Shown here one piece after another: positions 5,950 to 36,793 of a DNA stretch of 64,000 nt. Each line of letters begins with the position of its first letter. Position 1 is the first letter of the stretch. Source of the DNA: Nitratidesulfovibrio sp. SRB-5 (GTDB taxonomy: Bacteria > Desulfobacterota > Desulfovibrionia > Desulfovibrionales > Desulfovibrionaceae). A program made the translations under genes and the position numbers. The stretch spans positions 124,001 through 188,000 of the forward strand of contig NZ_JAIOTY010000003.1 in assembly GCF_019931275.1 (NCBI RefSeq), written 5' to 3'. The notes beneath the pieces were generated by a model, which saw only the letters and a list, made by a program, of their open reading frames with translations, searched no databases and was not told where the DNA came from.

Positions 5950-7605
5950 CTACGGCAGCATCCACTTCAGCGGGTAGGCCTGGAGCATGGTCAGCACGCA
6001 GATGAACGCGGTCATCGCGACGGAGTGCCACAGGGTGAAGCGGAACAGCTGGCCTTCCTGGCCGACCATCTTGGTGGCCGCGGTGGCGACCGAGATGGAC
6101 TGGGGCGAGATCATCTTGCCGGTAACGCCACCCGAAGAGTTGGCGGCAACGGCCAGGTGCGGGTCCATGCCCACGCTGGTGGCGGTGGTGCGCTGCAGAC
6201 CGCTGAACAGCGCGTTGGACGAGGTGTCCGAACCGGTCAGGAACACGCCCAGCCAGCCCAGCAGCGGCGAGAAGAACGGGAACAGCCAGCCGGTCTTGGT
6301 GAAGGCGAGGCCCATGGTCGAGCTCATGCCGGAGTAGTTCATGATCTGGGCAAGGCCAAGGATCATGGCGATGGTCAGGATGGGGAAGCGCAGCTGATGC
6401 ATGGTGCGGAACAGGCAGGGAATGGCCTGGCCGTAACCGTACTTGGGCATCATGGGCACCGCGGCAAGGCCGGTGAACAGGATCGCGGTACCGGCGGCGG
6501 AGATGATGTTCAGCTTGAACATGGCGCCGTACGGGGCATTGGCGGCCACGATGGGCGCGGTCTTTTCGATGGCGTTGTGCAGGCCCGGCCAGGCAAAGCC
6601 CTTGGCGGCCAGCGGGGTGAAGCCAGCGCCCAGGGCGCCGTCGAGGTAGGGCTTGATTTCGGGCAGGCCCCAGAAGAACACCATGATGGCCAGGATGATG
6701 TAGGGCATCCAGGCGCGGATGATTTCACCGAAGGAGTAAGGCGAGGGGCCGGTCAGGGCCGAGGGGGTTTCGTCGGGGAAGTGCCAGGTGGAGGCGGGCT
6801 TCCACACGCGCAGCAGCAGCACGAGGCCGATGATGGTGATGATGGCCGACATGATGTCGGGCAGGGTCGGGCCGTGGAAGTTCGAGAAGGCGTACTGCGA
6901 ACCGGCGAAGCACACGCCAGCCACGATGACGGCGGGCAGCACTTCGAGCGAGCGCTTGAAGCCGCACATGGTCACGCACAGCCACATGGGCACGATGATC
7001 GACAGGAAGGGCAGCTGACGGCCCACGATCTGGCTGATGTGCATGGTGTCGAGGCCCGACACCTGGCCGGCGACGATGACCGGAATACCGATGGCGCCGA
7101 AGGCCACCGGAGCGGTGTTGGCGATAAGGCAGATACCCGCGGCGTACAGCGGGTTGAAGCCCAGGCCCACCAGCATGGCCGCGGTGATGGCCACGGGGGT
7201 GCCGAAACCGGCGGTGCCTTCGATGAACGAACCGAACGCGAAGGCGATGAAGATGGCCTGCAGGCGACGGTCATCGGTAAGGCGTGCCAGCGAATCCTTG
7301 ATGATCTCGAATTCGCCGGATTCGACGGTCATGTTGTAGATCCACACCGCCGTGATGACGATCCAGACGATGGGGAACAACCCGTACGCTGCACCGTACA
7401 GGGTCGCATTGACGGCCAGGTTCACGGGCATGCCCCACACCAGGATGGCGAGCAGCACGGCCGCGGTGGTGCCGAGGGCGGCAGCGAAGTGACCCTTCGC
7501 GCGGCGCACGGCCAGCATGTAGAAAAGAACATACAGCGGCACGGCGGCGACCAGTGCCGACAAAAGGATGTTCGAGAGCGGATCGTAGTTCTGCACCCAG
7601 TTCAT
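5950..7605 (-). CDS. lctP: L-lactate permease
   Basis: Polytopic lactate:proton symporter of the LctP family in the inner membrane. Lactate is the usual electron donor of Desulfovibrio. The 551-residue product has about 13 hydrophobic segments and family hallmarks such as GSFIEGTAGFGTPVAITAAM (about residues 124-143), NTAPVAFGAIGIP and, near the C-terminus, GSDTSSNALFSGLQ and NSSGGVTGKMISPQSI. The start at 7605 (MNWVQNYDPLSN) has the strong ribosome binding site GGGAGGAG. It stands alone, with a terminator at 5823-5866. The 5' side is an unusually AT-rich region with a palindrome and repeats that probably hold its control sites. Confidence 0.96.
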   Translation of the reverse strand: MNWVQNYDPLSNILLSALVAAVPLYVLFYMLAVRRAKGHFAAALGTTAAVLLAILVWGMPVNLAVNATLYGAAYGLFPIVWIVITAVWIYNMTVESGEFEIIKDSLARLTDDRRLQAIFIAFAFGSFIEGTAGFGTPVAITAAMLVGLGFNPLYAAGICLIANTAPVAFGAIGIPVIVAGQVSGLDTMHISQIVGRQLPFLSIIVPMWLCVTMCGFKRSLEVLPAVIVAGVCFAGSQYAFSNFHGPTLPDIMSAIITIIGLVLLLRVWKPASTWHFPDETPSALTGPSPYSFGEIIRAWMPYIILAIMVFFWGLPEIKPYLDGALGAGFTPLAAKGFAWPGLHNAIEKTAPIVAANAPYGAMFKLNIISAAGTAILFTGLAAVPMMPKYGYGQAIPCLFRTMHQLRFPILTIAMILGLAQIMNYSGMSSTMGLAFTKTGWLFPFFSPLLGWLGVFLTGSDTSSNALFSGLQRTTATSVGMDPHLAVAANSSGGVTGKMISPQSISVATAATKMVGQEGQLFRFTLWHSVAMTAFICVLTMLQAYPLKWMLP

Positions 7606-27406: not shown

Positions 27407-27705
27407 GGCGAATCTCCTGTGCTCACGAAAGATGTCTGGCCGCCCATGGGTGGCGGGCGGGACCGAACCGTCCGGCCCCGTCGGGGCTCATGGGGAACTC
27501 ATGGGGGTCCACCGGGGCCCACCGGGGCCCACCGGGTCGCATCCGGCCCCATCTGGCCCCATCCGGGCAGTAACGTCGTGGGCAGAATGGCACGGCGGGC
27601 GGTGGTGCGTCCAGACGGTTCCCACTCCGTCGCCTCCCGTTCCCGCCTGTTCCCGCCTGTTCCCGCCCGTTCCCGCCTGTTCCTGCCGACAGGCCGTGCA
27701 CCCCG
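27407..27705. other. Repeat-rich gap between oppF-like gene and sigma-54 regulator
   Basis: About 300 bases with two tandem arrays: CCACCGGGGCC-like units around 27516-27540 and 10-bp units at 27641-27680. I see no gene and no clear terminator for the regulator operon, so read-through into the ATPase gene is possible. Confidence 0.55.
27641..27680. repeat. 10-bp tandem repeat, four units
   Basis: TCCCGCCTGT, TCCCGCCTGT, TCCCGCCCGT, TCCCGCCTGT in exact register, with degenerate units on both sides. Confidence 0.95.
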
Positions 27706-29253
27706 CTACAGCCCGTAGCGCTTCAGTTTGCGCCACAGCGAGGCGCGGTCGATGTCCAGCACCTTGGCCGCCTGCGTCCGGTTGCCGCCCGCCAGTTCCA
27801 GCACCCATTCGATGTGCGCCCGCTCGTTCTCGTCCAGGGTCATGGGGCGGCCATCGGGCGTCATGCCTTCTCCGGCCCCGCCGGGCATGCGGGCTGCCTC
27901 GTCGGCGCGCAGCACCAGCGCGGGGCCTGCCGCGCCCCCCTTGCCCCCATTCCCGCCAGCACCCCCCGCAATCCCGGCCAGCGCCCGCAGGTCGGGCGGC
28001 AGGTCCGCCGGGGTGATGACGTCACCCGCGCAGAGCACGGCGGCCCGTTCGATGATGTTGTGCAGCTCGCGCACGTTGCCCGGAAAGGGATAGCGGGCCA
28101 GCACGCCCAGCGTTTCCGGGGCGATGTGCGGGGCGGGCCTGCCCGTGTCGCGCGCGGCCTTTTCCGCGAAGTACTGGGCCAGCAGGGGCACGTCCTCCAT
28201 GCGCTCGGCCAGCGGGGGCATGCGCAGCACCACCACGTTCAGGCGGTAGTACAGGTCGTACCGGAAGCGCCCCGCCGCCGCCTCCGCCGCCAGATCCTTG
28301 TTGGTGGCGGCCAGCAGGCGCACGTCCACGGGAATGTCCGCCGTGCCGCCCACCCGGCGGATGGTGCGTTCCTGCACCGCGCGCAGCAGCTTGACCTGCA
28401 TGGGCAGCGACATCTCGCCCACCTCGTCGAGGAACAGGGTGCCCCCCTCCGCCGCCTCGAACAGCCCCTTGCGCTGGCGCACCGCGCCGGAAAAGGCCCC
28501 CTGCTCGTGGCCGAACAGTTCGCTTTCCAGCAGTTCCTCGTTGAAGGCCCCGCAGTTGATGGCCAGAAAGCGCGCCTCGGACCGGCGGCTGAACAGGTGC
28601 ACCATGCGCGCGGCCAGTTCCTTGCCGGTGCCCGTCTCGCCCAGGATCAGCACGGTGACGTCCGACGGGGCCACCTGCGCGATGGTGCGCTTCAGCGCCT
28701 GCATGCACGGCGCGGACCCCAGCAGGGGCACGGGCAGCGACCGTTCGCGCAGCTGTTCGCGCAGGCGGGCCACCTCCTGCCTCAGGCGGCGCTTTTCCAG
28801 CGCCTTCTGCACCAGCGCCCGCGCCTCGTCCAGGTCGTAGGGCTTGGGCAGGTAGTGGTAGGCCCCGGCGTGCATGGCCTCCACCGCCGTCTTCACCGTG
28901 GGGTAGCCGGTGACCACCACCACCTCGGTGTCCGGATGGCGCATCCGCACCGCGCGCAGCAGGTCCAGCCCGTCCATGCCCTGCATCATCAGGTCGGTGA
29001 GCACCAGGTCGAAATCCGCCCCGGCCAGCAGTTCCAGCGCCTCTGCCCCGTTGGCGGCGGTGAACGTCTCGTGCCCCTGCCGCCCCAGCGCCAGGGCCAG
29101 GTTGTCGCGCGCGATGGCCTCGTCGTCCACCACCAGAATGCGCGCCGGGCCGGGAGTGGCCGGAGCGTGCGGGGTGGTCAGGGACGAGAAGGGCGAAGGG
29201 GCGCCCGCCGTCTTCGCGGCAGCCCCCGTTGTCCGTCCGGGCGTGTCGTTCAT
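27706..29253 (-). CDS. Sigma-54-dependent response regulator, NtrC type (A)
   Basis: Phosphorylation-controlled activator of sigma-54 promoters, 515 residues. The receiver domain is at about 37-155, with phosphoacceptor Asp87 (VLTDLMMQG), acidic pair Asp43/Asp44 and Lys137 (LPKPYD). The AAA+ domain has LGETGTGKELAAR, the sigma-54 contact loop reading GAFSGA in place of GAFTGA, and LFLDEVGEMS. The C-terminal Fis-type helix-turn-helix reads GGNRTQAAKVLDIDRASLWR. A Gly-rich linker (AGGAGGNGGKGGAAG) precedes it. The start at 29253 follows GGGAGAC and overlaps the kinase stop as ATGA. It is the last gene of the receiver-Lon / kinase / regulator operon and presumably acts on the divergent promoter at 33516. 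Confidence 0.94.
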   Translation of the reverse strand: MNDTPGRTTGAAAKTAGAPSPFSSLTTPHAPATPGPARILVVDDEAIARDNLALALGRQGHETFTAANGAEALELLAGADFDLVLTDLMMQGMDGLDLLRAVRMRHPDTEVVVVTGYPTVKTAVEAMHAGAYHYLPKPYDLDEARALVQKALEKRRLRQEVARLREQLRERSLPVPLLGSAPCMQALKRTIAQVAPSDVTVLILGETGTGKELAARMVHLFSRRSEARFLAINCGAFNEELLESELFGHEQGAFSGAVRQRKGLFEAAEGGTLFLDEVGEMSLPMQVKLLRAVQERTIRRVGGTADIPVDVRLLAATNKDLAAEAAAGRFRYDLYYRLNVVVLRMPPLAERMEDVPLLAQYFAEKAARDTGRPAPHIAPETLGVLARYPFPGNVRELHNIIERAAVLCAGDVITPADLPPDLRALAGIAGGAGGNGGKGGAAGPALVLRADEAARMPGGAGEGMTPDGRPMTLDENERAHIEWVLELAGGNRTQAAKVLDIDRASLWRKLKRYGL

Positions 29254-30938
29254 GCCGCGTCTCCCGTGGGTTCCGGCGCGCCCAGCGGCAGCCGGATGGT
29301 GAAGCACGTGCCCGCGCCGGGGGTGCTTTCCACCCCTATGGAGCCGCCATGCTTGCGGATGATGCCGAAGGCCACGGACAGCCCGAGGCCGGTGCCCTTG
29401 CCCACCTCCTTCAGCGTGAAGAAGGGGTCGAAGATGCGGCCAAGGTGCTCCGGCCCGATGCCGATGCCCGTGTCGGCCACGCGCAGCACCACCTGCCGCG
29501 CCGCCACGTCGCGCGTGGCGGTGACCGTGATGGCCCCGGCGCGGGGGCAGGCCCCGTCCGGCATTACGCCGTCCGGCCTCTTCTCGTCCGGCCCCTTCCC
29601 GTCCGGCATGCCACCTTCCGGCGCGCTTCCGTCCGCCATGCTTCCTTCCGGCGCGTTGCCGTCCCGCTCCTGCGCGGCCTGCACCGCCTGGATGGCGTTT
29701 ATGAGCAGGTTCAGCAGCACTTCCTGAAACCGCTGCACGTCCAGCGGCAGCACGATGTCTCCGGGCACCTCGGCGTCGATGGCGATGCACGCGGGCACCT
29801 CGCTGGCCACCAGCGCCACGCTGCGGCCCACCACGTCGCGCAGGGCCACGGGTTTGAGCGAGAATTCCGTCTCGCGCGAAAATTCCAGCAGCCCCTTCAC
29901 GATGTCGCGCGAGCGGTGCACTTCCTGATGGATGTTTTCCAGCATGCGCCCGGCCAGGGCCGGATCAAGAGCGCCAGTCCCGCCTGCGCCGCCGGAGCCG
30001 CCAGTCTGGCCGGGCCCGCCATCCGCTCCGTTGCCGCCCGTGGCGTAGCGCAACTCCTCGCGCAGTATCTGGCACGAGGTGGAGATGTTGTTCAGCGGGT
30101 TGTTCAGCTGGTGCGCGATGCCCGATGTCAGCACCCCCAGCGAGGCCAGCTTCTTTTCCTGCACCAGCTGGTTCTGGCGGTGCTCCAGTTCCACAAGCAT
30201 GTGGTTGAAGGCCTCCACCACGCCGCGCGTCTCGTCGCTGGTGGCGGGCAGGGGCAGCTGTTCCAGGCTGCCCTGCACGATCTGCCGGGCCGAACGCTCA
30301 ATGACCGACAGCGCCCCCAGAATGCGCCGCCCGATGAGCCACGAAAAGAACGTCGCCAGCCCCACCATGGCCCCGATGGACAGCAGCAGCTGGTGCTTCA
30401 GCGACCCCACGATGCCCAGGATGCGCTCGCGCTGGTAGGTGACGATCTGGCGGGCCTGCGCCACCAGCGCCTTGCCCTGTTCGCGCAGGTCTTCGCGCAG
30501 CGCACCCCGCTCGCGTTCGCGCAGTTGCCCGGCAAGCTGCACCTCGCCCAGGCGGCTGAAGGTGTCGCGGTAGCCGTGCAGGTCGCGGCGCAGGGCGCGC
30601 AGCCCGTCGCTGCCCCGCAGGTCGGTGCCCTGCACGCCGCCGCCACCCGGCTCGATGCGCTCGATGACATCCAGCGCCCGACCGATGAACACCAGGTTCT
30701 CGGCGTGGTCCTCTTCCATGGCGTAGAGCAGGTAGTTCTTTTCGTAGCGGCGGATTTCCAGGATGTCGCTGCTCAGGTCGTCCACCACCTCGGCCAGGGC
30801 CAGTGCGTCCTCGATCTGCAGCAGGTAGTTGTACGACAGCCCGCCCAGCAGCGAGAACCCCAGAATGGACACCGAGATGCCGAACAGCACCAGTTGCCGG
30901 ATGTTGCCCGCGGCCAGGCGGCGGATCAGGAACTGCAT
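29250..30938 (-). CDS. Membrane histidine kinase (A) of the receiver-Lon operon
   Basis: Sensor kinase of 562 residues. Membrane segments at about 16-36 and 184-203 flank a periplasmic helical domain whose EIRRYEKNYLLYAMEEDHAE stretch resembles helical bimodular (HBM) sensors. A HAMP-like region follows, then the H-box SGIAHQLNNPLNN with His276, N-box LLNLLINAIQAV, and G boxes VADTGIGIG and GKGTGLGLSVAFG. Gly/Asp/Pro-rich inserts of about 25 and 50 residues lie in the dimerisation hairpin and after the N-box. The start at 30938 overlaps the end of the receiver-Lon gene by 13 bases, and its stop overlaps the regulator start (ATGA). The signal is unknown. Confidence 0.93.
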   Translation of the reverse strand: MQFLIRRLAAGNIRQLVLFGISVSILGFSLLGGLSYNYLLQIEDALALAEVVDDLSSDILEIRRYEKNYLLYAMEEDHAENLVFIGRALDVIERIEPGGGGVQGTDLRGSDGLRALRRDLHGYRDTFSRLGEVQLAGQLRERERGALREDLREQGKALVAQARQIVTYQRERILGIVGSLKHQLLLSIGAMVGLATFFSWLIGRRILGALSVIERSARQIVQGSLEQLPLPATSDETRGVVEAFNHMLVELEHRQNQLVQEKKLASLGVLTSGIAHQLNNPLNNISTSCQILREELRYATGGNGADGGPGQTGGSGGAGGTGALDPALAGRMLENIHQEVHRSRDIVKGLLEFSRETEFSLKPVALRDVVGRSVALVASEVPACIAIDAEVPGDIVLPLDVQRFQEVLLNLLINAIQAVQAAQERDGNAPEGSMADGSAPEGGMPDGKGPDEKRPDGVMPDGACPRAGAITVTATRDVAARQVVLRVADTGIGIGPEHLGRIFDPFFTLKEVGKGTGLGLSVAFGIIRKHGGSIGVESTPGAGTCFTIRLPLGAPEPTGDAA

Positions 30939-33283
30939 GCGCCCCCCCGGTCATCTGCTGCCCCGGCGGGCAGCAGGGCCACGGCCAGCGCATCCTGCAC
31001 CCGCGCGGCAAAGGCCACCTGCGGCAGGCCGCCGGACCCGCGCGCTGCAAATTCCGCCAGCAGGCCGCGCGCCTCCGCCTCGTTGGCGGCGGGCAGCACC
31101 ACGGTGCGCGCCCCGGCCCGCGCTGCGGCCAGCAGCTTTTCACGCACCCCGCTGACCGGCAGCACCCGGCCCGACAGCGACAGTTCGCCCGAAAGGGCCA
31201 CGTCGGCCCGCGCCGGACGGCCCGACAGCAGCGAGACAAGGGCCACGCAGATGGTCAGCCCGGCGGAGGGGCCATCCTTGGCGATGCCCCCGGCGGGGAT
31301 GTGGATGTGGATGTCCTGCGCGGAGGTGTCGCCCTGGCCGGAGTGCCCGGACAGGCCGGACGGGCCAGACGGATCCTCTTGGCCCCCCCGGACGGGGTCC
31401 GCCTGCCCGAAGAGACCCGGCACGCCCAGGTGTGCCGCCTCGGCCCGGATGTGGCTGAGCGCGATGCGCGCCGATTCCTTCAGCACCTCGCCCAGCGAGC
31501 CGGTAAGGATGAGCTGGCCGGAACCGGCCATGCGGGCCGCCTCCACGAACACGATCTCGCCCCCCGCCTCGGACCACACCAGCCCGGTGGCCGTGCCCAC
31601 GCGGGGCACGCCGTGGGCCGCGTCGTGCCGGTAGCGCGGCGGCCCCAGCAGGGCGGCGGCCACGTCATCGTCCACCAGCAGCGTGTTCGAGGGCACGGCG
31701 TCCGGCGAAGGAGTACCGGAGGCGATGCCGCCCGCCCGTTCAGCCCTTTCAACTCGTTCAGCTCGTTCAGCTCGTTCATTCGGTCCAGTCGCGCCCGTCG
31801 CTCCCGCAGGCCCTCCCGCAGGTTCTCCCGCATGCCCGCCAGCCTCCAGCCGCAACCGGGCCAGCTTGCGGCACAGCCGGGCCAGTTCCCGCTCCAGCCC
31901 GCGCACGCCCGCCTCGCTGGTGTAGTCGTTGATGATCCGCGACAGGGCTCCCGGCGTCACCTGCGGATAGGGCGCGGTCAGGCCGTGTTCGCGCAGCTGG
32001 CGGGGCAGCAGGAAGCGGGTGGCGATGTCCAGCTTGTCCGCCTCTGCGTAGCCGTGGAATTCCACCACCTCCATGCGGTCCAGCAGGGGGCCGCGCAGCC
32101 GCTCCACCCCGTTGGCCGTGGCGATGAACAGCACCTGCGAAAGGTCGAAGGGTATCTCCAGGTAGCGGTCCACGAAGCGGGCGTTCTGCTCCGGGTCCAG
32201 CACCTCCAGCAGGGCCATGGCCGGGTCGCCCTTGGCGTCCTGTCCCACCTTGTCGATCTCGTCCAGCATGAACACCGGGTTGCGCACCCCCGTGGCGCGC
32301 AGGGCCTGGATGATCCGCCCCGGCATGGCTCCCACGTAGGTGCGCCGGTGGCCGCGCAGTTCCGCCTCGTCGCGCAGGTCGGCCAGCGACATGCGGTAGA
32401 AGCGCCGCCCCAGCGCCTCGGCCAGCGCCCGCCCCACGGAGGTCTTGCCCACGCCGGGCGGCCCGGTGAAGCACAGCACCGGCGCGCGCGACGAAAGGCC
32501 CTGCGTGCGGTCGGCCAGGGCCTCGCGCACGGTGGCGCGCAGTTCCGCGATGTCGATGGGCTTGGAAAGGTACTGCACCGCGCCGGTCTTCAGGGCCTGC
32601 ACGGCGGTGTCCACCGTGGCGTAGCCGGTCACCACCACGATGCGCGTGTCCGGGGCCACCCGCCGGGCCGCCTCCATGAGCTGCATGCCGTCCATGCGGT
32701 CCATCTTCAGGTCGGTGACGATGCAGTCGTAGCGGCGCCGGGCCAGCCGGGCCAGGGCTTCTTCGCCGTTGGCCGCCGTATCCACCGTGTAGCCTTCGCG
32801 GGCCAGCACGTGGGCCACGTTGTCGCGGGCGATGGGTTCATCGTCCACCACCAGCACGGCGGCGGGCTGGGTGGCGCACAACACGCGCGCCGCCAGATGC
32901 TCCAGCACCCGTTCGCGCACCTGGCCAAGGCCCGCGTGGCTGGCGTCGAACACCGCCGCCGCGCGCGCAAGGTCCAGGCTGTCGCGGGTCAGCCCGTTCC
33001 ACGGCAGGTCCAGCAGGCATTCCACGTAGTTGAGGACGATGGCGTTTTCCGGCGCGGCTGCGTCGGTCTTTTCCATGCGGCCTGTTTCCGCCTCCACCAC
33101 CCCGCGCACCGCATCGGGCAGGTCTGCCGCCGCGCATCGGGCGCGCAGGCCGGTGGGGTCTGCCTGAACGGGCTGGCCCGCCTGGCCAGTCTGGCCAGTC
33201 TGGCCGGACTGGCCGTCTCCCGGCCCCGCCGCGCCGGACGCGTCTGGCGGGGTATCCCCGCCCTGCCGCCGAAAGAAGATCAT
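30926..33283 (-). CDS. Lon-type protease with an embedded response-regulator receiver domain
   Basis: A 785-residue fusion. Residues about 80-135 match the helical region just before the Lon ATPase (LNYVECLLDLPWN, DLARAAAVFDASHAGLGQVR). Residues 142-262 are a complete receiver domain (Asp147/Asp148, phosphoacceptor Asp191 in VTDLKMD, Thr219, Lys241 in LSKPID). The Lon AAA+ domain follows with GPPGVGKT (274-281), VFMLDEIDK and GHRRTYVGAMPGRIIQAL, then the protease domain with catalytic Ser673 (KDGPSAG) and Lys716 (VREKLL). The large N-terminal Lon substrate domain is missing and replaced by a Gln/Gly-rich repeat. The start at 33283 has GGAGG. It is the first gene of the operon with kinase A and regulator A. 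I infer phosphorylation-controlled proteolysis. Confidence 0.93.
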   Translation of the reverse strand: MIFFRRQGGDTPPDASGAAGPGDGQSGQTGQTGQAGQPVQADPTGLRARCAAADLPDAVRGVVEAETGRMEKTDAAAPENAIVLNYVECLLDLPWNGLTRDSLDLARAAAVFDASHAGLGQVRERVLEHLAARVLCATQPAAVLVVDDEPIARDNVAHVLAREGYTVDTAANGEEALARLARRRYDCIVTDLKMDRMDGMQLMEAARRVAPDTRIVVVTGYATVDTAVQALKTGAVQYLSKPIDIAELRATVREALADRTQGLSSRAPVLCFTGPPGVGKTSVGRALAEALGRRFYRMSLADLRDEAELRGHRRTYVGAMPGRIIQALRATGVRNPVFMLDEIDKVGQDAKGDPAMALLEVLDPEQNARFVDRYLEIPFDLSQVLFIATANGVERLRGPLLDRMEVVEFHGYAEADKLDIATRFLLPRQLREHGLTAPYPQVTPGALSRIINDYTSEAGVRGLERELARLCRKLARLRLEAGGHAGEPAGGPAGATGATGPNERAERAERVERAERAGGIASGTPSPDAVPSNTLLVDDDVAAALLGPPRYRHDAAHGVPRVGTATGLVWSEAGGEIVFVEAARMAGSGQLILTGSLGEVLKESARIALSHIRAEAAHLGVPGLFGQADPVRGGQEDPSGPSGLSGHSGQGDTSAQDIHIHIPAGGIAKDGPSAGLTICVALVSLLSGRPARADVALSGELSLSGRVLPVSGVREKLLAAARAGARTVVLPAANEAEARGLLAEFAARGSGGLPQVAFAARVQDALAVALLPAGAADDRGGACSS

Positions 33284-33325
33284 GCGCGCCTCCTCGCAGT
33301 CCCTCTGGGCCTGACCGGCATCACC

Positions 33326-33459
33326 GTTGCGGAGTGAAGCACCGTTGCATTTCGCAACGCTGTGCTTTTTTTCACGAACCCGCGCGAAACCGGCCTGTTA
33401 CGCGGATTGGTAGCAGTTGGCGTTGCACTTTGCAACACCATGAGCTCGCCATCCGCAAC
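33326..33459. promoter_or_regulatory. Palindromic upstream activator sites
   Basis: Two palindromes, GTTGCATTTCGCAAC at 33344-33358 and GTTGCACTTTGCAAC at 33422-33436, share the form GTTGC-N5-GCAAC. Half-sites GTTGCGGA (33326-33333) and TCCGCAAC (33452-33459) flank them. They lie about 80-200 bases upstream of the sigma-54-like promoter at 33516, the usual distance for enhancer sites, and between two divergent operons. Regulator A is the natural candidate to bind. Confidence 0.7.
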
Positions 33460-33515
33460 ATCTCACCTCACAATATACACAATAAAATCAGTGTCATGCC
33501 TGAAGCAGCGCGCTC

Positions 33516-33531
33516 TGGCACGGCGCTTGTT
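33516..33531 (+). promoter_or_regulatory. Sigma-54-like promoter of the Usp/TSUP operon
   Basis: TGGCACGGCGCTTGTT has a perfect TGGCACG -24 box and correct spacing to TTGT at -12, where the consensus has TTGC. Predicted start near 33541 gives a 26-base leader to the ATG at 33567. The -12 deviation lowers confidence, but upstream palindromes and a sigma-54 regulator next door support it. Confidence 0.6.
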
Positions 33532-33566
33532 TATGCATGCGCACACACAAACCGCGAGGAAGCAAA

Positions 33567-33809
33567 ATGGGAACCATCCGCGAATCGATCGAGTCGGCAT
33601 TTGTCGCAGTGGCCTTTGCGGAACGGAACAGGCCGGACGAGGCCGTGTGGCAGCTGCGCGGAAGCGACGACGCCACCCGCCAGGACAACCAGGCCCGCCG
33701 CACGGAGGCGGCCCAGCCTTCCGCATCTCCCGCGTCCCCCGCACCTGGTGCGCAGTCCCGCACCGCAACCGCCGGGCAACGCCAGCGCCCGGTGCTGAGA
33801 GCCGAGTAA
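33567..33809 (+). CDS. Small protein, first gene of the Usp/TSUP operon
   Basis: An 80-residue protein. The N-terminal 31 residues (MGTIRESIESAFVAVAFAER and NRPDEAVWQLR) look structured and conserved in character. The rest is Ala/Pro/Ser/Gln-rich and probably disordered. No signal peptide. The ATG at 33567 follows GAGGAAGC. I do not recognise a family. It is transcribed away from the receiver-Lon operon, next to the sigma-54-like promoter, and could be an adaptor or substrate for that system, which is inference only. Confidence 0.8.
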   Translation: MGTIRESIESAFVAVAFAERNRPDEAVWQLRGSDDATRQDNQARRTEAAQPSASPASPAPGAQSRTATAGQRQRPVLRAE

Positions 33810-33899
33810 CCATGCCTTTGTTCCATTGTTCTCGGGCGGCCCGCCTCCTTCGCGCAGCCGACCACTCACCCGCCCGCATTCTTTTCGCGGAGGCCGCCC

Positions 33900-34457
33900 A
33901 TGCCCGGTAGATGGTTTCGCCGTACCGCCACCGGCGGTGACGCCGGGCAGGGCGACATCCGCATGCGTTCCACCACCGCCGTGCGCGTGGAGGAACGCCT
34001 GGCCGACTACGCCGAGGCCCTGGCCCTGGCCGAAGCGGGCGAACAGTTGCTGGCCGGGGCGGTGATCCGCCGGGGCGAGGCCCAGGTTCGCCGCATCCTG
34101 GTGCTGGGGCACGGCTGCGGCCTGTCCTCTCGCCTTGCGGGCTACGCCCTGAGCCTTGCCGGGCGCATGGGCAGCGGCCTGCTGTTCCTGCACGTGGGCG
34201 ATGCATCGCACGACGCCTACCGCCGCGCGGCCTTTGAACGGCAGGCGCGGGCGGGGGCCCTTGAATGGGTGGAAGCGGCGCGCGCGCGGGGCATGGCGGC
34301 CCTGCACGAGGTGCGCTTTGCCCCGTCCGGAAGGCCGGACCAAGCAGTGGAAGAAGCGGCGCGGGCCCATGGCCGCGTCGAGTTGATCCTGAGCGAACCG
34401 GAAGAGAGCGAACTGATGCGGGGCCGCACCGGCCTTGCACTGTTCACGGTGGAATGA
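33900..34457 (+). CDS. Usp-like protein of unknown function
   Basis: A 185-residue cytoplasmic protein. The central part RRILVLGHGCGLSSRLAGYA, LSLAGRMGSGLLFLHVGDAS and the late VELILSEPEESELM follow the strand-helix order of universal stress proteins, but the GxxGxxxS/T nucleotide motif is not evident. I call it Usp-like with caution. The ATG at 33900 follows CGGAGGCCGCC. Second gene in the divergent operon, 90 bases after the small protein, and followed by a membrane protein gene. Confidence 0.75.
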   Translation: MPGRWFRRTATGGDAGQGDIRMRSTTAVRVEERLADYAEALALAEAGEQLLAGAVIRRGEAQVRRILVLGHGCGLSSRLAGYALSLAGRMGSGLLFLHVGDASHDAYRRAAFERQARAGALEWVEAARARGMAALHEVRFAPSGRPDQAVEEAARAHGRVELILSEPEESELMRGRTGLALFTVE

Positions 34458-34534
34458 GGGCGACCGCCCTCGACAACCCCCGCCAACGGGGACAACGGGC
34501 CGTCACGCAGGCGGCGCCACCACGGGAGTCAGCA

Positions 34535-34855
34535 ATGGCAACGCAATCAGCACGCAAGCCCTGGGGCAAGACCATCATCTTCGGCATTCTGTCCGCCGCC
34601 CTGTACGCAGGGGTATTCGCCTTCGCGGACACCATAGCCGCCCATTTCGCCCAGGGCTCGTACTGGGCCGCCGGGCCCATCGCCACGGTGTTCCTGTTCT
34701 CGTACGTGCACGGTGAATTCACCGGCAACCTGTGGAGCGTGCTGGGCATAGAGGCCACCCGCAAGACAGCCCGCAAGACGGAAACGACCACGGCCACTGT
34801 CGGCCAGCCCGCCACCGTCCGCCCGGCCGCGCGCCGCGCCACGCTGAACGCCTAG
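34535..34855 (+). CDS. Small membrane protein in the TSUP operon
   Basis: A 106-residue protein with one or two hydrophobic segments between residues 11 and 57 (TIIFGILSAALYAGVFAFAD, WAAGPIATVFLFSYVHG) and a Thr/Ala/Arg-rich tail. The ATG at 34535 follows GGGAGTCAGCA. The gene ends 23 bases before the TSUP permease, so it may be a subunit or partner of that transporter. No family recognised. Confidence 0.8.
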   Translation: MATQSARKPWGKTIIFGILSAALYAGVFAFADTIAAHFAQGSYWAAGPIATVFLFSYVHGEFTGNLWSVLGIEATRKTARKTETTTATVGQPATVRPAARRATLNA

Positions 34856-34878
34856 CGGCGCCCCTCAGGAGACGCATC

Positions 34879-35937
34879 ATGGATATCCTTGCACTGGACC
34901 CCACAAAGTTCATCGACCTTACCGCATCGGGCATCTGTTTCCTGTTCCTCGTCGGCTTCATCGGCGGGCTGGTCAGCGGGTTCATCGGCTCTGGCGGAGC
35001 CTTCGTGCTGACCCCCGGCATGATGAGCCTTGGCGTGCCCGGCACCGTGGCCGTGGCCAGCAACATGTGCCACAAGTTTCCCAAGGCTCTGGTGGGGGCC
35101 ATCAAGCGCTTCCGCTACGGACAGGTGGACGTGAAGCTGGGGCTGGTCATGGCCGCGTCCGCCGCCGTGGGCGTGCAGCTGGGCATCCGCATCCAGCAGG
35201 TCATTCTGGAAAAGTGGGGGCAGGTCGGGTCGGACCTGTACGTCAGCCTGTCCTTCGTGGCGGTGCTGGTGCTGGTGGGTGGCTACGTCATGCGCGACGC
35301 CCTGCGCTGCGCCCGGTGCGGCGGCGTGGAAACCACCGCGCCCCTGGCCCTGCGCCTGCAATCCATCGAACTGCCTCCCATGATCACCTTCCGCCGCTCG
35401 GGCATCCGCATTTCGCTGTGGTTCACCCTGCCCGTGGGCTTCGCCACCGGCATGCTGGCCGCCACCATCGCCGTGGGCGGGTTCATCGGCGTGCCCGGCA
35501 TGATCTACGTCATGGGCGTGCCGGGGCTGATGGCATCGGCCACCGAACTGGTCATCGCCTTCGTCATGGGCCTTGGCGGGTCCATCAACTGGGCCATGCA
35601 CGGCATGGTGGACATCCGCCTGGTGCTGATCATCCTCGGCGGATCGCTGCTGGGCGTGCAGCTGGGGGCCATCGGCACCACCTACGTGCGCGAGCACATG
35701 ATCAAGATGGTCATGGCCGTGATCATGCTCATCGTGGCCGTGAGCCGTGGCATTGCCCTGCCGCGCTACCTGGTGAAGCTGGGATTTATGGACATGTCGC
35801 CCGAAATGCTCGACGTGCTGGGCAAGATCAGCTTCGCGTCCATGTGCCTGGCCCTGCTGACGGGCGCGGTGATCATTCTCGGCAGCATGTGGAAGGGCCG
35901 CGCGGCCGCGCGGGAGGAGGCGCATGGGCAGGCTTGA
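34879..35937 (+). CDS. TSUP (TauE/SafE) family permease
   Basis: Inner-membrane carrier of the TSUP family, members of which move sulfite, sulfoacetate or other organosulfur anions. The 352-residue product has about eight membrane segments and the family's two inverted repeats: LVGFIGGLVSGFIGSGGAFV (about 24-43) and FATGMLAATIAVGGFIGVPG (about 195-214). A cytoplasmic loop at about 145-180 contains CARCGG, a possible metal site. It is about 80-100 residues longer than minimal TauE. The ATG at 34879 follows CAGGAGACGC. The stop lies inside the following tandem Usp gene (14-base overlap), so the two are coupled. Confidence 0.92.
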   Translation: MDILALDPTKFIDLTASGICFLFLVGFIGGLVSGFIGSGGAFVLTPGMMSLGVPGTVAVASNMCHKFPKALVGAIKRFRYGQVDVKLGLVMAASAAVGVQLGIRIQQVILEKWGQVGSDLYVSLSFVAVLVLVGGYVMRDALRCARCGGVETTAPLALRLQSIELPPMITFRRSGIRISLWFTLPVGFATGMLAATIAVGGFIGVPGMIYVMGVPGLMASATELVIAFVMGLGGSINWAMHGMVDIRLVLIILGGSLLGVQLGAIGTTYVREHMIKMVMAVIMLIVAVSRGIALPRYLVKLGFMDMSPEMLDVLGKISFASMCLALLTGAVIILGSMWKGRAAAREEAHGQA

Positions 35938-36793
35938 GCGTCTGCTGGTGCCCGTCACCGGCGATGAACATTCCCTGTACGCGCTGGACCAGATCCTGGA
36001 GTTCGCCGCCACCCGCAAGTGCCGGGTGGCGGTACTCTCGGTGGTGCCGCCCTACACCGGCGACCTTGGCTCCAGCGCCCTGGCGGACCTGAAGCGCCTG
36101 CTGCGCCAGCCCAGCGAACTGGCCCTGGCCCGCGCGCTGGAAATGGCCAACGCGCGCGGCATGGACATCGACTGCCTGTGCGAGGAAGGCGAGCCCTTCG
36201 AGGTCATCGTGGACACGGCCCGCAGGCTGAAGGCCGACCTTGTCGCCATGGGCGTGGCCGACCGTTCGGCCCTGGGGCGGCTGGTGCGCGGCAACGTGCC
36301 GCTGCGCACCATCGGCCACAGCGACCGCGACGTGCTGCTGGTGCCGCAGGGCGCGGTGCTGGGCTTCCGGTCCATCCTGCTGGCCACGGACGGTTCGCGC
36401 TACTGCACCTATGCCGCCGTCACCGCGCTGCAACTGGCGCGCGAGCACGACGCCGACCTGCACGTGCTGTACGTGGCCGACCTGGCCTTTCCCGATTCCG
36501 CGGAAGGGCAACTGGCGGCGGACATGGAAGTGGAGCACGGCAGGGCCGTGGTGGAGGCCATTGCGGCGCGGGCCGCGCAGGAAGGGGTGCGGGCGCGCGG
36601 CCACGTGGCGCAGGGAGAGGCGGCGGAGCGCATTCTGGCCACGGCAAGGCGGCTGGGCGCGGAGTGCCTGTTCATCGCCTCGCACGGCAAGGGGGGGCTG
36701 GCCCGACTGCTGCTGGGCAGCGTGGCCGAAGAGGTGGTGGCCAGCGCGCACATCCCGGTCTATGTGGCCGTGCGGGACAGGTTGCGACGGTAA
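35924..36793 (+). CDS. Tandem universal stress protein
   Basis: A 289-residue cytoplasmic protein with two Usp domains. Domain 1 (about 1-142) starts RLERLLVPVTGDEHSLYALD and keeps LVAMGVADRSALGRLVRGNV. Domain 2 (about 148-285) starts FRSILLATDGSRYCTYAAV and keeps IASHGKGGLARLLLGSVAEE, close to the ATP-binding G-x2-G-x9-G-S/T motif. Tandem Usp proteins often bind ATP and regulate transporters or kinases. Start 35924 lies within the end of the TSUP gene behind GGGAGGAGG, so co-translation is likely. Last gene of the divergent operon. Confidence 0.92.
   Translation: MGRLERLLVPVTGDEHSLYALDQILEFAATRKCRVAVLSVVPPYTGDLGSSALADLKRLLRQPSELALARALEMANARGMDIDCLCEEGEPFEVIVDTARRLKADLVAMGVADRSALGRLVRGNVPLRTIGHSDRDVLLVPQGAVLGFRSILLATDGSRYCTYAAVTALQLAREHDADLHVLYVADLAFPDSAEGQLAADMEVEHGRAVVEAIAARAAQEGVRARGHVAQGEAAERILATARRLGAECLFIASHGKGGLARLLLGSVAEEVVASAHIPVYVAVRDRLRR

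Follow-up and report, generated by a model that had tools for sequence, protein, structure and literature searches.

The window analyzed in this study, a 64,000-nucleotide stretch of Nitratidesulfovibrio sp. SRB-5 DNA (contig NZ_JAIOTY010000003.1), carries two divergently oriented gene clusters. On the minus strand, the gene for a 785-residue Lon protease with an embedded receiver domain (REC-Lon; 30926..33283) is followed by genes for a sensor histidine kinase (29250..30938) and a response regulator (27706..29253). The coordinates bear out the overlaps claimed in a preliminary description of this DNA, namely 13 bases between the REC-Lon and kinase genes and 4 bases (ATGA) between the kinase and regulator genes. 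Pfam HAMP, HisKA and HATPase_c domains were identified in the kinase, and its N-terminal sensor region matched no Pfam family at E 0.01. The regulator consists of a receiver, a sigma-54 activator AAA+ domain with the GAFSGA loop and a Fis-type helix-turn-helix.

On the plus strand, the divergent operon contains a Usp-like protein (33900..34457; Usp score 18.5 bits, under the Pfam cut-off of 24 bits), a 106-amino-acid ORF (34535..34855), a TSUP (TauE/SafE) permease (34879..35937, start codon taken from the translation) and a tandem universal stress protein with two Usp stretches (35924..36793). The last two were assigned by Pfam, which supports the earlier view of an operon of Usp-like proteins and a TSUP permease, with the Usp-like ORF remaining below the cut-off. 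The 106-residue product looked membrane-like by eye and matched no Pfam family at E 0.01, and relatives of it occur in many REC-Lon loci. The operon is headed by an 80-amino-acid ORF (33567..33809) with an N-terminal AFAE hairpin motif, which was absent from the preliminary list.

The layout of REC-Lon was derived from Pfam, an alignment with a solved Lon structure (4ypl) and a table of active-site residues. It comprises a Lon helical region (residues ~42-136), a receiver (~139-262, approximately 32498..32869 on the minus strand), an AAA+ domain (270-409), a Lon lid (432-480) and an S16 protease domain in two stretches to ~740. Pfam matches were found for Response_reg (143-252, E 8.4e-32), AAA (270-409, E 1.1e-23), Lon_lid (432-480, E 7.6e-17) and Lon_C (two stretches, E 1.5e-57). 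In the structural alignment, REC-Lon residues 42-136 correspond to chain positions 7-101 and residues 260-482 to positions 101-324; the Lon part is interrupted only once, and the receiver is therefore a single-point insertion. None of the 13 Pfam families listed was LAN, the Lon substrate-binding domain, and in 21 REC-Lon sequences the stretch between the stop and the Lon helical region spans only 20-159 residues. With 594.5 bits, the protein also stayed below the cut-off of NCBIfam TIGR00763 (608.05).

The active sites of both the receiver and the protease are intact. The receiver has D147, D148, D191, T219 and K241, the ATPase has a Walker A motif (GPPGVGKT from 274) and a Walker B motif (FMLDEIDK from 338), and the protease dyad is formed by S673 in DGPSAGL (from 670) and K716 in VREKLLAA (from 713). 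All 21 tabulated sequences (the window and 20 loci) kept the Ser-Lys dyad as well as all five receiver residues, and in one of them (L047) the Walker B Glu is replaced by Asp. The Walker A GKT was invariant in the 18 sequences of an alignment. Among 62 Lon receivers, the phosphoacceptor Asp was always present, and the Thr position was occupied by Thr in 61 and by Ser in one. Thus the essentials of the preliminary description hold: a complete receiver within residues 142-262, placed cleanly between helical region and ATPase, an intact Ser673/Lys716 dyad, a missing N-terminal substrate domain, and Response_reg, AAA and Lon_C all recovered by the domain search that it had suggested.

Of 99 relatives searched, with the own genome counted among them, 36 had a full-length REC-Lon match, including each of the eight same-genus genomes searched. 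In the phylum, 51 of 395 genomes had a match beginning in the Lon helical part (three were cut short); five further genomes with a receiver-only match were left out of this count. Named full-length carriers among the best 80 matches include Desulfomicrobium, Desulfomonile, Desulfobacter, Desulfocapsa, Syntrophaceae and Nitrospirae bins, and 58 of 100 loci (L031-L130) passed our REC-Lon architecture filter. The family is present in many sulfate reducers. A quick, unrooted tree of the ATPase-protease region (84 rows after five near-copies were dropped from 89, one canonical Lon being included twice) split 52 REC-Lons cleanly from 32 canonical Lons (SH-aLRT 99). REC-Lons thus form a group separate from the sampled canonical Lons, which is new here, as are the phylum count and the results below on receiver kinship, the upstream palindrome and the transporters. 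In view of the full-length matches and of the position of REC-Lons on one side of a branch, a chance event or an artefact was rejected as the explanation of the fusion. A plasmid or viral origin found no support: no plasmid record covered 80% of REC-Lon in one place, and no relative appeared when viral contigs were scanned once with 237 residues as the query.

The preliminary description had called for a survey of gene order across genomes. Using 29 well-flanked loci (5 kb or more of upstream and 4 kb or more of downstream sequence; bit thresholds set by us; L051, a near-copy of L038, and L053, with the same REC-Lon as L040, dropped beforehand), we found the kinase-regulator pair in 26. It was missing at the set thresholds in L058, L085 and L070, the last having broken frames with fragments of both kinase and regulator present. 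The arrangement of these genes varied: in 59 loci, the nearest regulator was downstream on the same strand in 16, downstream on the opposite strand in 16, upstream on the opposite strand in 8 and upstream on the same strand in 3, and was below threshold in 16, many of these on short contigs. The pair also occurs without REC-Lon, since of 15 genomes of unstated completeness, picked for a pair without an adjoining REC-Lon, 4 had REC-Lon elsewhere and 11 had no match; the pair can therefore exist independently, and REC-Lon looks like an added layer on it.

The remaining neighbors were conserved to different degrees. Usp or Usp-like ORFs were present at 23 of the 29 well-flanked loci (the Usp-like ORF at 17, the double Usp at 9), and TSUP and the 106-amino-acid ORF family at 21 each. 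A DASS-like transporter was found in seven of the eight loci lacking TSUP, so that 28 of 29 had one or the other; the exception, L085, had neither within the available stretch. The transporter is thus replaced rather than lost. With a transporter of one type or the other at 28 of 29 loci, anion traffic is a likely object of control in these organisms. The two DASS-like proteins submitted to Pfam (L045 and L064) matched CitMHS, Na_sulph_symp and TrkA_C, and that of L045 scored 117.7 bits against NCBIfam DASS, below its cut-off of 198.6. L077 additionally carries NhaB.

Two palindromes, GTTGCATTTCGCAAC (33344..33358) and GTTGCACTTTGCAAC (33422..33436), lie between the divergent operons, and both are likely sites of the regulator. 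The own genome has 12 GTTGC-N5-GCAAC sites, and the only exact GTTGCRNNNYGCAAC sites listed genome-wide are these two. Upstream of REC-Lon, the exact GTTGC-N5-GCAAC palindrome occurred in 32 of 62 regions (mean of mononucleotide shuffles 0.02) and, with at most one mismatch, in 44 (shuffle mean 1.12), leaving 18 regions in which it was absent even at one mismatch; the 62 regions include near-copies, and two are shorter than 700 bases. The palindromes were also kept at loci whose kinase and regulator lie outside the REC-Lon operon (for example, L064, L072 and L077). The partner regulator is their likely binding protein. As a genome-wide predictor of the regulon, the one-mismatch palindrome was rejected (75 sites vs 32 for a reversed control), and exact GTTGCRNNNYGCAAC matches alone were retained.

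For the divergent operon, a promoter resembling the sigma-54 -24/-12 type, TGGCACGGCGCTTGT, is located at 33516..33530 on the plus strand. This call is based on its conservation in relatives and not on the window-wide scan, in which the sigma-54 pattern was not above chance (33 found vs 43 expected). No convincing sigma-54 promoter was seen on the Lon strand in the window. A sigma-70-like site at 33497-33470 represents one consensus match only.

The two receivers of the system are related to each other. When the own genome was searched with the Lon helical and receiver regions, the partner regulator ranked first among the other matches listed (121.6 bits, with 90.1 for the one after it). The two receivers share 64 of 114 residues (56%), compared with at most 46 of 114 (40%) between the Lon receiver and 40 other own receivers, drawn from approximately 107 other receiver hits in this genome. 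At eight positions of helix 1, chosen by us and taken to be kinase-contact positions, the partner matched the Lon receiver at five and the 40 others at no more than three. As the two receivers are 56% identical overall, conservation of this face does not clearly exceed that of the remainder. A helix-1 motif, [IVLM][ATS]xxN, was present in 61 of 62 Lon receivers, in 45 of 51 response regulators of REC-Lon loci (the unrelated L097_RR_3 dropped), in 11 of 35 other response regulators, which came from the closest scan matches and are not a random sample, and, by eye, in none of the 40 other own-genome receivers. Regulators with a different helix-1 face lie near REC-Lon in L096, L097, L105 and L110. 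In a receiver tree (n = 167, 123 columns, after removal of 17 of 184 rows as near-copies or as the broken L070), the Lon receivers required 4 label changes, where shuffled labels needed 47.1 on average, and many forks were unresolved; one origin of the Lon receivers may be compatible with this tree. The kinship fits a duplication in which a shared kinase would have been retained, and the shared helix-1 residues may reflect common descent alone.

A three-part REC-Lon system has already been described, in 2011 and in a sulfate reducer, with nearly the same inference as in the preliminary description. In D. vulgaris Hildenborough, DVU3303-3305 were proposed to form a possible three-component system that includes a response regulator containing Lon, and DVU3305 was reported to control its own operon and the divergent one (PMC3333781). 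According to the same source, DVU3305 orthologs occur in some Desulfovibrio-related species, Thermodesulfovibrio, Thioalkalivibrio and Dechloromonas, and a Lon-RR accompanies them in most such species (PMC3333781). DVU3305 has the GAFSGA loop, and the Lon operon is marked as lacking a sigma-54 promoter (PMC4641369). The preliminary description had mentioned a related putative Lon annotation in D. vulgaris and had been unable to say whether the fusion had been studied; given the 2011 account, it is not unreported (PMC3333781). In the literature within reach, which mostly did not extend to subscription papers, we found no study that assayed the fusion for phosphotransfer or for protease activity.

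Fitness data for the D. vulgaris genes bear on how the parts may work together. Pairwise cofitness of DVU3303, DVU3304 and DVU3305 exceeds 0.9. In 6.25 mM chlorate, all three are detrimental and the target transporter DVU3299 is important (average fitness -2.3); that is, loss of the three genes helps and loss of DVU3299 hurts (PMC10102598). With opposite signs where plain activation would give equal ones, the system cannot be a mere activator of its transporter under that condition. A serious alternative explanation of the high cofitness is polarity of insertions within one operon, from the Lon gene onto kinase and regulator; no word starting with 'polar' occurs in the main text of the report (PMC10102598).

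Based on these observations, we consider it moderately probable that the locus encodes a three-component system in which one kinase serves two receivers and so couples transcription of the transporter to Lon proteolysis. The membrane kinase would phosphorylate both related receivers. The sigma-54 activator would then bind the paired GTTGC-N5-GCAAC sites and induce the divergent operon, with its Usp-like proteins and anion transporter, and the paired palindromes also adjoin REC-Lon upstream. The second receiver is carried by a Lon without LAN, where it lies at the junction of helical collar and ATPase ring. Because of this position, the receiver is predicted to gate the enzyme: its phosphorylation would alter the entrance of the ring and turn the degradation of a limited set of substrates on or off. 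The same coupling had been proposed in the preliminary description, and it is partly sustained: receiver kinship, the association at 26 of 29 loci and the cofitness all fit it, whereas the chlorate signs and possible polarity weaken its simple form. Further points against it are the different helix-1 face of the nearby regulator at four loci, the 18 upstream regions without the palindrome, the 11 genomes with the pair and no REC-Lon match, and the three well-flanked loci in which the pair was missing at the set thresholds. Where kinase and regulator form an operon of their own, or REC-Lon is absent, the coupling could be tested free of polarity.

Lon is known to degrade regulators, and REC-Lon might instead act as a feedback arm, its phosphorylated form degrading either of its two signalling partners, kinase or regulator, or proteins encoded by the divergent operon, and so ending the response. 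We regard this as unlikely. The presence of REC-Lon near the same module at most well-flanked loci would suit such a role, as would the opposite chlorate signs of the three genes and DVU3299 (PMC10102598). On the other hand, loss of Lon should then oppose loss of the regulator, yet their cofitness is high, unless polarity accounts for it (PMC10102598).

It is still less probable that the receiver is not driven by the kinase at all, either serving as a structural stand-in for LAN or being charged only by small phosphodonors, with Lon activity set by expression. The insert does adjoin the ATPase in a Lon without LAN, and the upstream palindromes suggest transcriptional control. However, a pure scaffold would let the receiver residues drift, and their conservation in 21 of 21 sequences, together with that of the phosphoacceptor Asp in 62 of 62, therefore counts against it.

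A sequence motif shared among neighboring genes was also considered in relation to substrate choice. A hairpin resembling AxAFAEAGExExA is common to the 80-amino-acid ORF, the Usp-like ORF and some membrane-like ORFs. After six near-copies among the 100 loci had been dropped, 65 frame hits (E up to 1e-3) were found in 37 of 95 sequences, mostly within approximately 10 residues of a Met. The tagged proteins tried gave no significant Pfam match for the motif, which resembles half a TPR (TPR_4, E 0.06). It was detected in 52 of 395 genomes, including 29 of the 51 with REC-Lon (Fisher p 1.7e-16, shared ancestry ignored); 22 REC-Lon genomes lacked it at the set threshold. The idea of a hairpin exclusive to REC-Lon found no support, as 23 of the 52 carrier genomes had no REC-Lon match. 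In three hairpin loci without REC-Lon (L219, L221 and L223; five of ten fetched stretches were looked at), its neighbors were receiver, kinase or, by eye, transporter genes. The motif may serve interaction or degradation.

An extended form of the coupled reading would have the ring gated directly by kinase phosphorylation, with a ring of receivers replacing LAN, and would name as substrates what the sister regulator causes to be made, namely the small and Usp-like proteins that bear the hairpin and the anion transporter; one phosphosignal would then both build and remove the same proteins; we hold this to be very doubtful. That the AFAEAGE hairpin is the recognition tag of REC-Lon, in place of LAN-based selection, appears highly improbable: its frequent position near a Met and its association with REC-Lon genomes favor a tag, but that association ignores shared ancestry, 23 of 52 carriers have no REC-Lon match, 22 of 51 REC-Lon genomes lack the motif at the set threshold, the three loci without REC-Lon place it among receiver, kinase or, by eye, transporter genes, and the motif looks like half a TPR.

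Returning to the coupled reading, its closest known counterpart is DVU3303-DVU3304-DVU3305, which shares with the window a Lon-RR, a kinase and a sigma-54 regulator with the GAFSGA loop (PMC3333781, PMC10102598, PMC4641369). Also shared are a divergent operon of five genes, among them UspA-type genes and, in fourth place in both, a putative anion transporter, as well as probable self-regulation and the lack of a reported sigma-54 promoter for the Lon operon. On the published descriptions, as far as available, no difference was found, and gene order, the GAFSGA loop and the transporter position indicate that the window system is very probably the ortholog. Compared with canonical LonA (TIGR00763; 4ypl), REC-Lon aligns throughout the helical region, AAA+ domain, lid and S16 dyad, but it lacks LAN, has the receiver inserted, falls below the TIGR00763 cut-off and lies on a separate side of the branch. 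RssB and CpdR are receiver-controlled adaptors of the AAA+ protease ClpXP, and REC-Lon resembles them if a phospho-receiver governs an ATP-dependent protease in both cases. In RssB and CpdR, the receiver is a separate adaptor protein, whereas in REC-Lon it is part of the protease chain. If phosphorylation does gate REC-Lon, an ATP-dependent protease would itself be a response regulator, and a membrane sensor would be linked directly to proteolysis with no adaptor in between.

Some REC-Lon loci of other genomes (L049, L064, L066, L070, L073, L075 and L077) lacked the TSUP permease encoded in the divergent operon of the window and had in its place a DASS-like transporter, roughly 600 aa long; NhaB was present in addition at L077. 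Judged by eye, L045, L050 and L072 likewise had a DASS-like transporter where TSUP was absent. Pfam analysis of the transporters of L045 and L064 identified CitMHS, Na_sulph_symp and TrkA_C.

A short motif, the AFAEAGE hairpin, was repeatedly present in small unrelated proteins of REC-Lon operons, including the 80-aa product of the first divergent gene (window 33567-33809, + strand) and proteins of L064, L086, L102 and other loci. Among the hairpin proteins tried, none had a significant Pfam match. The genome of strain SRB-5 contained three more matches to the hairpin (G000:C2:225501-226322), which adjoined receiver genes. At L048, a separate receiver-only frame (6175-6735; 187 aa, stop to stop) was located directly upstream of the REC-Lon gene, and its helix-1 was of the same type.

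Short tandem repeats were found within the REC-Lon gene (window 31734-31778 and 33173-33218), within the kinase gene (29569-29664) and directly downstream of the operon (27639-27687); those in the REC-Lon and kinase proteins were translated as low-complexity inserts. L070 and L110 each showed several fragments instead of one intact REC-Lon reading frame, which reflects either true decay or an assembly error.

By eye, an RR(Y/F)EKN(Y/F) motif occurred repeatedly in the sensor regions of the kinases, both in the window (29250-30938, − strand) and at L064, L072 and L223. This motif may be reminiscent of HBM-type sensor domains.
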